From: Terriglobia bacterium
GTDB taxonomy: Bacteria > Acidobacteriota > Terriglobia > Acidiferrales > UBA7541
DNA length: 64,000 nucleotides
Assembly: GCA_020072785.1 (NCBI GenBank)
Contig: JAIQGG010000002.1
Location: 1,488,001 to 1,552,000, forward strand
Direction of reading: 5' to 3'
The notes under the pieces were generated by a model. The model was not told where the DNA came from and did no database searches. It saw only the letters and a list, made by a program, of their open reading frames with translations. Positions 5,200 through 9,929 of this stretch are shown piece after piece. The position numbers and the translations under genes were made by a program. Every line of letters starts with the position of its first letter. The first letter of the stretch is position 1.

Positions 5200-5220
5200 C
5201 ATACCGTATTATGGTATGAT
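5200..5220. promoter_or_regulatory. Inverted repeat overlapping a -10-like element
   Basis: CATACC (5200-5205) and GGTATG (5213-5218) form a perfect dyad with a 7-nt AT-rich centre. The 3' arm overlaps TATGAT (5215-5220), a good -10 hexamer, 38 nt before the selenoprotein start codon. No convincing -35 box is seen. A repressor or activator operator over the promoter is a reasonable reading. Confidence 0.4.
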
Positions 5221-5257
5221 CACTGCGCCTTGCTTGCGCTTGGATAAGGAGACTTCA

Positions 5258-5827
5258 ATGGCCCGCATCAGCTATGTGGCTCCAGAGACGATTGCCGACC
5301 CGCAAATACGCCAGTGGCTCGAGGCCTCGATCAAGGCCGGACGACCCGGGCCGGAGAATCAGGCCATTCGCGCGCATCAGCCGGACGTGATGCGTTCATT
5401 CACCACGACCTTTGACATGCTGTTCAAGAAAGACAAGGGCACCGTGGAGTGGGAGCTCAAGGAACTGCTGCGGGCCTACATCGCCATCAGCATGTCCTGC
5501 AATTATTGAATGAACCAGGGATCCGCGCAGGGTGCGCGGAACAAAGAAGACCGGATGTCGGAAGTGCATAAGTACGAAGAGTCCGAGCGGTTTACGGCGC
5601 GCGAAAAACTCGCCTTGAGCTATGCCGACGCCATCATGTGGGCTCCGGAGAGAGCGGACGATGCCCTGTGGCAGCGGCTGCACGCCGAATTCAGCGAGCC
5701 GCAGATCGTGGAGATCGGGTACTGGACAGGATTCATCTTCGGCGGGCAACGCTGGCTGCGCACGCTGCAGACCCAAGCCGGTGAACTTTCCGCATTTCTC
5801 GCGCAAAAGAGAAACGAAAAAGCATAG
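5258..5827 (+). CDS. AhpD/carboxymuconolactone decarboxylase-like selenoprotein (UGA read as Sec at residue 84)
   Basis: Read through one in-frame TGA (5507-5509), this is a single 189-residue AhpD-like protein. The ATG at 5258 follows an AAGGAGA ribosome site. Residues 1-83 carry the family N-terminal part (ELKELLRAYIAISMSCNY). After the stop the same frame continues without a gap into NQGSAQGARN, then ERFTAREKLALSYADAIMW and FSEPQIVEIGYWTGFIFGGQRWL, the usual C-terminal half. Family members have a redox C-x-x-C here; this gene has C81-N82-Y83-TGA, so TGA stands exactly at the second Cys. A hairpin 19 nt downstream has the geometry of a bacterial SECIS. AhpD-like selenoproteins are a known class. 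Expected role: thiol/selenol peroxidase or peroxidase-recycling activity in the cytosol. Alternatives are a nonsense mutation or sequencing error, or a restart at the ATG directly after TGA. The dctA-like gene begins 2 nt after its stop codon. Confidence 0.75.
5507..5542 (+). promoter_or_regulatory. Predicted bacterial SECIS element with Sec UGA codon
   Basis: The TGA at 5507-5509 is followed 19 nt later by a 5-nt apical loop AGGGT (5529-5533) closed by six consecutive G-C pairs, CCGCGC (5523-5528) with GCGCGG (5534-5539), plus a T-A pair (5522/5540). Bacterial SECIS elements need a stem-loop whose apical loop starts about 16-37 nt after UGA and has a G among its first two loop bases. Both conditions hold (A then G). 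The loop ends in T, as GGU/GU-type loops often do. Confidence 0.72.
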
Positions 5828-5829
5828 CC

Positions 5830-7095
5830 GTGACCCGCCGCCCCTGGTACAGAGACCTTTACGTGCAGGTCCTGGTGGCGATCGCCCTGGGCATCTTCGC
5901 CGGGCACTTCTTCCCCCAAGCAGGCATAGCCCTCAAACCGCTGGGCGACGGTTTCATCGCGCTCATCAAAATGATGATCGGGCCGGTGATCTTCTGCGTG
6001 CTGGTGCAGGGCATCGGGTCCATGACCGACATGAAGAAGGTCGGGCGCGTGGGCTTGAAGACGCTGGTTTATTTCGAAGTGGTGTCCGTGTCGGCGCTGC
6101 TCATCGGCATGCTGGTGGCGCAAGCGGGGCAGCCGGGCCGGGGATTGAACATCAATCCGGCATCGCTCGACGCCAAATCAGTGGCCGCGTACGTCAGCCA
6201 CGCCAGCCGCGCCAAGGATGCCGGACTCCTCGCCCGGCTGCTGGAAATCATTCCCGCAACGTTTCTGGATGCCTTCGTTCACGACAATGTTCTACAGGTG
6301 GTGCTGATCGCCATCCTCTGCGGCTTCGCCATTTCGCGCCTGGGAGAGGGCAGCGCCCGGGTGACGCGCGCGGTCAGCGTGGCCAGCAAAGTGTGTTTCG
6401 GCATCATCCGCATGATCGTGCAACTGGCGCCCATTGGCGCATTTGGAGCCATGGCCTTCACCGTCGGCCGTTACGACCTCGCCGCGCTCTCCAATCTCGC
6501 CAAGCTGATTGGAACTTTTTATCTCACCAGTGTGATCTTCGTCGTGCTCATTCTCGGGAGCATCGCGTACCTGGCGGGCTTTTCGCTCTTCCGTTTTCTC
6601 GCCTACATCAAGGACGAGCTCCTGATCGTGCTGGGCACCAGCTCGTCGGAAACCGTGATTCCGGACATGCTCCAGAAGCTGGAGCGCCTGGGCGCGCCGC
6701 GCTCGATTGTGGGGCTGGTGTTTCCGATGGGCTACAGCTTCAATACCGACGGAGCGAATATCTATATCACCCTGGCGGTGCTCTTCCTGGCGCAGGCCAC
6801 CAACGTGCATTTCACGCTGGGGCAGGAGGTGCGCGTGCTGCTCTTCGCCATGATTGCGTCGACGGGAGGCGCGGGCGTGCCCGGCGGAGCTTTCGTGAAG
6901 GTGGCGGCGGTGCTCAGCGTCTTCCCCGAAATACCCGTGCAAGCGCTGGCGCTTCTGCTGGGAGTCGACAAATTCATGAGCGAATGCCGGGCCTTGACGA
7001 ACGTCGTCGGCAACGGCGTGGCCACGATTGTGGTCAGCCGGTGGGAGGGCGAACTGGACGTGGCGAAAATGCGCGAGGTACTTGGCGGCAAATAG
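5830..7095 (+). CDS. dctA: Dicarboxylate/amino acid:cation symporter, DctA type
   Basis: 421 aa, DAACS family, an inner-membrane sodium- or proton-coupled importer of C4-dicarboxylates or acidic amino acids. The conserved second half is intact: the first re-entrant loop serine motif SSSE (271-274), the TM7 motif GYSFNTDGAN (301-310) and the second re-entrant loop TGGAGVPGG (345-353). Hydrophobic segments fit the usual eight helices. The start is a GTG at 5830, two nucleotides after the selenoprotein stop, so it is probably translationally coupled; no strong ribosome site is visible. The exact substrate cannot be read from sequence. Confidence 0.87.
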   Translation: MTRRPWYRDLYVQVLVAIALGIFAGHFFPQAGIALKPLGDGFIALIKMMIGPVIFCVLVQGIGSMTDMKKVGRVGLKTLVYFEVVSVSALLIGMLVAQAGQPGRGLNINPASLDAKSVAAYVSHASRAKDAGLLARLLEIIPATFLDAFVHDNVLQVVLIAILCGFAISRLGEGSARVTRAVSVASKVCFGIIRMIVQLAPIGAFGAMAFTVGRYDLAALSNLAKLIGTFYLTSVIFVVLILGSIAYLAGFSLFRFLAYIKDELLIVLGTSSSETVIPDMLQKLERLGAPRSIVGLVFPMGYSFNTDGANIYITLAVLFLAQATNVHFTLGQEVRVLLFAMIASTGGAGVPGGAFVKVAAVLSVFPEIPVQALALLLGVDKFMSECRALTNVVGNGVATIVVSRWEGELDVAKMREVLGGK

Positions 7096-9035: not shown

Positions 9036-9929
9036 ATGGAGCCTGTGAAGCTGATCGAGTGCCCGCGCGATGCGTGGCAGGGATTGCCGGAGTTTATTCC
9101 GACGGAGTACAAGGCGGAATATCTGAAGGAGCTGGTGCTGGCGGGATTCCAGCACATTGACGCGGTGAGCTTTGTTTCGCCCAAGCATGTGAAGCAGATG
9201 GCGGACAGCGAAGAGGTGATGAAACTGTTGAATACTTCCCTGCCCGCGGACGTCGCGCGGCCGGAGATTATCGGGATCGTGGTGAATGAAAAGGGGCTGG
9301 AGCGGGCGCTGGCCACGCCGGGGGTGACGACGATCGGCTACCCGTACTCCATTTCGGCGTATTTCCGGCGCGCCAATGCCAACATGAGCCGCAGCGAATC
9401 GCGGGCACTGGTGGAAAAGCTGAGGAAGGGGACGGCGGCGGCGGGACGCGACCTGGTGATTTACATTTCGATGGCCTTCGGGAATCCCTACGACGAGCCG
9501 TGGGGGCCCGAGATCGTGGAGGAAACGCTGGAGTGGCTGAAGGATATTCGGGTGCGCACGGTTTCGCTGGCGGATACGGCCGGAAATGCTGCGCCAGAGC
9601 TGGTGGGTACGCTGTACAACCAGGTGAAGAACCACGTGGCGGGGATCGAGCTGGGAGTGCACCTGCACAGCCGGCCAGAGACCATGGAGGCCAAAGTGTT
9701 GGCGGCGTACGCGGCGGGCTGCCGGAGATTCGATAGCGCGCTGACGGGACTGGGCGGGTGCCCCTTTGCGGGGGACGAGTTGGTGGGGAACCTGGCCACG
9801 GAGACGGTGCTGGCGGCGCTGCGCACGGCGGGCGGAGATCCCGGTGTGAGCTCCGAACGCCTGGCCCGCGTCATCCAGATGAGCAACGAAATTCGCCAGA
9901 AATACGCGCCCGCGCCGCTACCCAATTGA
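9036..9929 (+). CDS. mvaB: Hydroxymethylglutaryl-CoA lyase
   Basis: 297 aa TIM-barrel lyase of the DRE-TIM family. It cleaves (S)-HMG-CoA to acetyl-CoA and acetoacetate, the last step of leucine degradation. Metal/catalytic residues: the R11-D12 pair in ECPRDAWQG, H209-x-H211 (GVHLHSRP) and the catalytic Cys C242 in GLGGCPFAG. The His-to-Cys spacing of 31 equals that of human HMGCL. The first-strand motif is ECPRDAWQG instead of the commoner VGPRDGLQN, an acceptable variant. The ATG at 9036 lies 1 nt after the carboxylase stop, so the two are co-translated. Confidence 0.88.
   Translation: MEPVKLIECPRDAWQGLPEFIPTEYKAEYLKELVLAGFQHIDAVSFVSPKHVKQMADSEEVMKLLNTSLPADVARPEIIGIVVNEKGLERALATPGVTTIGYPYSISAYFRRANANMSRSESRALVEKLRKGTAAAGRDLVIYISMAFGNPYDEPWGPEIVEETLEWLKDIRVRTVSLADTAGNAAPELVGTLYNQVKNHVAGIELGVHLHSRPETMEAKVLAAYAAGCRRFDSALTGLGGCPFAGDELVGNLATETVLAALRTAGGDPGVSSERLARVIQMSNEIRQKYAPAPLPN

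Follow-up and report, generated by a model that had tools for sequence, protein, structure and literature searches.

Positions 5258–5827 (forward strand) of the 64,000-nucleotide stretch of Terriglobia bacterium DNA analysed here (the window; G000:C2:1488001-1552000) almost certainly encode a single 189-residue AhpD/CMD-like protein in which the UGA at codon 84 is predicted to be decoded as selenocysteine (Sec). This reading is drawn by comparison, from one frame combined with Sec/Cys exchange at one codon, a SECIS-like hairpin and the Sec machinery of the genome. The assembly that contains the window is 3.73 Mb in size and 98.9% complete.

Gene structure and conservation

The sequence-only reading had joined two open frames in the same phase into one protein, and its coordinates, length and redox motif (C81-N-Y-UGA84) were all correct. 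The read-through frame ends at a TAG stop (5825–5827) and contains a single TGA (5507–5509), located at codon 84, the second cysteine position of the CxxC motif. The resulting C-x-x-U redox motif extends from Cys81 (TGC) to Sec84 and occupies 5498–5509 of the forward strand. The mechanical open reading frame begins at 5216 and the start common to all orthologues is at 5258, 6 nt downstream of a Shine–Dalgarno-like AAGGAG read directly from the forward strand (5246–5251); the same AAGGAG precedes the start in orthologues G029 and G028. Automatic annotation would split this gene in two or call it a pseudogene.

Three orthologues, all from the same genus, were identified among 89 genomes searched in the family, with sequence identities of 95% (G029), 80% (G028) and 77% (G030). 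All three have TGA at codon 84, consist of exactly 189 codons without indels and end in TAA or TAG. The dN/dS ratios between the window gene and these orthologues are 0.06–0.09 for residues 1–83 and 0.11–0.22 for residues 85–189, values well below 1 that indicate purifying selection on both sides of the TGA. A scan of 84,980 species genomes returned a single close relative, which was again the G029 gene.

The SECIS-like hairpin

A bacterial SECIS-like hairpin (5522–5540, forward strand) is located just downstream of the TGA. It consists of a 7 bp stem (TCCGCGC/GCGCGGA, 5522–5528 paired with 5534–5540) and a small, G-containing apical loop (AGGGT), the A and T of which can close an eighth pair, and it displays the conservation and compensatory changes of a SECIS element. 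The stem and loop had been described correctly from the letters, whereas the 19 nt given as the distance to the stem is the distance to the apical loop (5529); the stem itself begins 12 nt past the TGA. The hairpin is conserved in the orthologues, with two compensatory pairs: in G030 (ATCGCGC-AGGCT-GCGCGAT) two pairs are changed on both sides and none is broken, and each slid register loses pairing as well as all of the pairs changed on both sides. Codon shuffles attain the folding energy of the hairpin with p of about 0.003, and the covariation shuffle test (49/500) is weak, with three distinct SECIS sequences. Synonymous divergence (dS) is 0 to 0.22 in the hairpin stretch (codons 85–97; about nine synonymous sites) compared with 0.26 to 1.40 in codons 98–189; a reduction confined to the hairpin stretch is what constraint on the RNA itself would produce.

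The two strands of the window contain 1389 TGA triplets in total, and a hairpin in SECIS geometry with an energy of −13 kcal/mol or lower follows 11 of them. Ten TGAs combine a hairpin of −9 or better with an open frame on both sides, and only that at 5507 was assessed as lying between stretches of conserved coding sequence. The other nine, which were assessed by reading their translations rather than by homology search, looked non-coding or wrong-frame, and the window scan gave no further convincing selenoprotein. The only Rfam match was a sub-threshold chance hit to a pseudoknot family (15.6 bits, threshold 47), located on the opposite strand and upstream of the hairpin.

Selenocysteine machinery

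The Sec machinery that such a gene implies is complete in the same assembly, with selA, selB, selC and selD all above their family cut-offs. The selA (555.6 bits) and selB (356.3 bits) genes are full length, and a single SelB passes the cut-off. The selD gene (348.7 bits) reads KAAGUAAKLSPG around its one in-frame TGA. Two tRNA-Sec genes (66.2 and 60.9 bits) have a UCA anticodon, discriminator G and the 3′ end GCCA. Of the 36 genomes from the genus, 31 have a tRNA-Sec gene, among them all 24 with a completeness of 90% or more and contamination of 5% or less.

The SelD of this genome (L018, G000:C1:111200-112165) is itself probably a selenoprotein, since its in-frame TGA is also followed by a hairpin. 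The two tRNA-Sec genes (L023:6065-6163 and 9714-9812; G000:C2:1112064 and 1115713) are divergent copies held in a 153 bp direct repeat (88% identity, extending over the promoter side), and the repeats flank a 3.5 kb insert with one gene for a 956-residue repeat-containing protein. The closest relative, G029, has one tRNA-Sec copy and lacks the insert; copy b resembles the G029 gene and copy a is more diverged. Two tRNA-Sec genes identical to each other were seen in tandem in another species of the genus (L073, G009:C465:6472-6566 and 6731-6825), where it adjoins a run of N and is possibly an assembly effect.

Alternative readings of the UGA

A CxxC gene broken by a TGC to TGA change (or a sequencing error) and now decaying would at first appear as an in-frame stop in a single open frame, and Cys homologues do exist. 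This is nevertheless very improbable: the same TGA is found in four genomes at 77–100% identity, there are no indels, selection continues past the TGA and the hairpin is conserved. The recurrence of the codon in three other genomes also indicates that the TGA at 5507 is not a base-calling error. The relatives, in which other stop codons or frameshifts had been named as signs of decay, retain TGA or Cys at this position and never have TAA, TAG or a frameshift. Equally improbable are two translationally coupled genes, an 83-residue peptide followed by a 105-residue protein starting at the ATG (5510) that directly follows the TGA (TGAATG). In G028 and G030 a GCG stands in place of this ATG, evidence against coupling or reinitiation; moreover, no ribosome-binding site is visible at 5510, and the junction would fall inside the CxxC motif of a family in which all Cys homologues are one chain.

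The UGA might instead specify another amino acid, delivered for example by a suppressor or, in the case of Cys, by a selC*-type tRNA-Cys. The genome has two tRNA-Sec-like genes; opal suppressor tRNAs and tRNA-Sec-like tRNAs for Cys are known from other bacteria, and allo-tRNAs from Acidobacteria (PMC7609411). Both tRNAs of this genome, however, score as tRNA-Sec and have discriminator G where tRNA-Cys has U73, and they are accompanied by the single SelB and by complete selA and selD, making this reading highly unlikely, if marginally less so than the other two. All three readings were rejected, and decoding of UGA84 as Sec is the reading retained below.

Family assignment

The read-through protein scores 22.0 bits against the Pfam carboxymuconolactone decarboxylase (CMD) family (PF02627), just below the gathering cut-off of 23, which is passed by the G030 orthologue (27.1) and by both Cys homologues (25.5 and 30.6). 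The two halves of the frame give little or no family match when searched alone. The best match of solved structure is the AhpD-core protein 2prr (E value 1.4e-4, residues 6–169). An AlphaFold model (two sequences) is all-helical, with a pLDDT of 49.6 that is too low for use. The product is probably an all-helical protein of the CMD/AhpD superfamily.

Canonical AhpD, as in the Mycobacterium tuberculosis enzyme with Glu118, Cys130, Cys133 and His137, carries a Glu at a distance of 12 residues N-terminal to the first Cys, and a His four residues after CxxC. The window protein contains Glu69 and C81-x-x-U84, but residues 85–88 are MNQG and the next His after the motif is His104. The earlier assignment as AhpD/CMD-like is sound at the superfamily level and does not extend to canonical AhpD, given the missing catalytic His and scores below the cut-offs of all named AhpD-type models. 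The best curated match, over residues 1–154, is NF053654 (GroundWater_YciW), a family of YciW-related (seleno)proteins; the score of 54.8 bits, where the cut-off is 310, suggests a related but separate subfamily. TIGR01926 (peroxidase-related enzyme) gives 36.0 bits against 81.8. All curated NCBIfam cut-offs are missed by a wide margin, which leaves the subfamily of the window protein outside the coverage of these models.

A 2005 study of the Sargasso Sea described AhpD-like CxxU selenoproteins (PMC1088965), and they were counted in 2006, with four selenoproteins in three families in Acidobacteria (PMC1794560); they are listed under TIGR01926 in a 2026 review (PMC13188914). The class is thus established, as the sequence-only reading had it, and the window gene would be a new member. 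The Sargasso Sea proteins resemble the window group in superfamily, CxxU motif, a SECIS element right after the UGA and the existence of Cys homologues. The window group differs from the selenoproteins listed under TIGR01926 in scoring 34–36 bits against the cut-off of 81.8 and in lacking a His after the motif.

Exchange of Sec and Cys among homologues

Among 30 homologues (L087 included), 18 have TGA at codon 84 and the other 12 have TGC or TGT, with no further codon seen; this is the alternation looked for in a selenoprotein family. A hairpin of 6–8 bp whose loop starts 17–20 nt after the codon is present in all 18 TGA copies and is absent or weak in the Cys copies, with L039 as the sole exception. 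The homologue tree requires four Sec/Cys label changes, at least three of which are forced by well-supported branches. It places the window clade as sister to two Cys proteins (L033 and L087), a position to be read with caution owing to long branches.

L039 (G079; Cys, TGC) and L041 (G078; Sec, TGA) are sister AhpD-like genes. The hairpin that L039 keeps at the SECIS site looks like a fossil SECIS, and its retention in a Cys copy suggests a recent change from Sec to Cys. The genome of the window also contains a second AhpD-like selenoprotein gene, L056 (G000:C2:200119-200511), with TGA also in G028 and G029. L056 shares with the window gene a CxxU motif (CHYUKEAN), the TGA and an 8 bp SECIS-like hairpin with its loop 20 nt after the UGA, whereas its product is only ∼33% identical over 133 residues and falls in a separate clade of the tree. 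The Cys homologues of G051 (L091:6178-6822) and G317 (L092:7442-8005) form a sister group with 39% identity and have Glu69, Cys81, Tyr83 and Gln87 in common with the window protein; they differ in having TGC in place of TGA, no matching hairpin and other neighbours (a carbon–nitrogen hydrolase in G051).

Genomic context and possible function

A sodium:dicarboxylate symporter gene (PF00375, 344 bits; 5830–7095, forward strand) begins 2 nt past the stop of the selenoprotein gene. It is directly downstream in all four genomes (the window, G029, G028 and G030; the G028 and G030 stretches examined cover the neighbours of the gene) and is the only neighbour found adjoining in all four. Based on the short gap and this conserved adjacency, the two genes probably form one operon. 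Both methylmalonyl-CoA mutase subunits are encoded upstream, and genes of acyl-CoA metabolism, in addition to the symporter, lie downstream.

In the proposed mechanism, SelB and tRNA-Sec would decode UGA84 as Sec, directed by the hairpin just downstream, and the Cys81-x-x-Sec84 pair would constitute a thiol/selenol redox centre. Sec84 would attack a peroxide or disulfide-type substrate, Cys81 would resolve the Sec84 intermediate by forming a selenenylsulfide, and the centre would be regenerated by a thiol donor of the cell. Thiol/selenol chemistry at Cys81/Sec84 is likely from the motif and the superfamily. Peroxide is a possible but rather doubtful substrate, and peroxidase activity is uncertain because the AhpD His is missing. 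Tentatively, and with a little less than even confidence, we propose that these proteins represent a separate AhpD-type Sec subfamily, found here in one acidobacterial genus. Under this proposal the subfamily would have arisen from a Cys ancestor by its own gain of Sec, would function in the absence of the AhpD His and would be co-expressed with the symporter, possibly in a redox role connected with uptake or with the metabolism of carboxylic acids.

The gene at 5258–5827 changes no principle of selenoprotein biology. It adds a well-supported predicted selenoprotein to soil bacteria for which few have been described in the literature searched, and it indicates that these organisms harbour several separate AhpD-type Sec subfamilies side by side.
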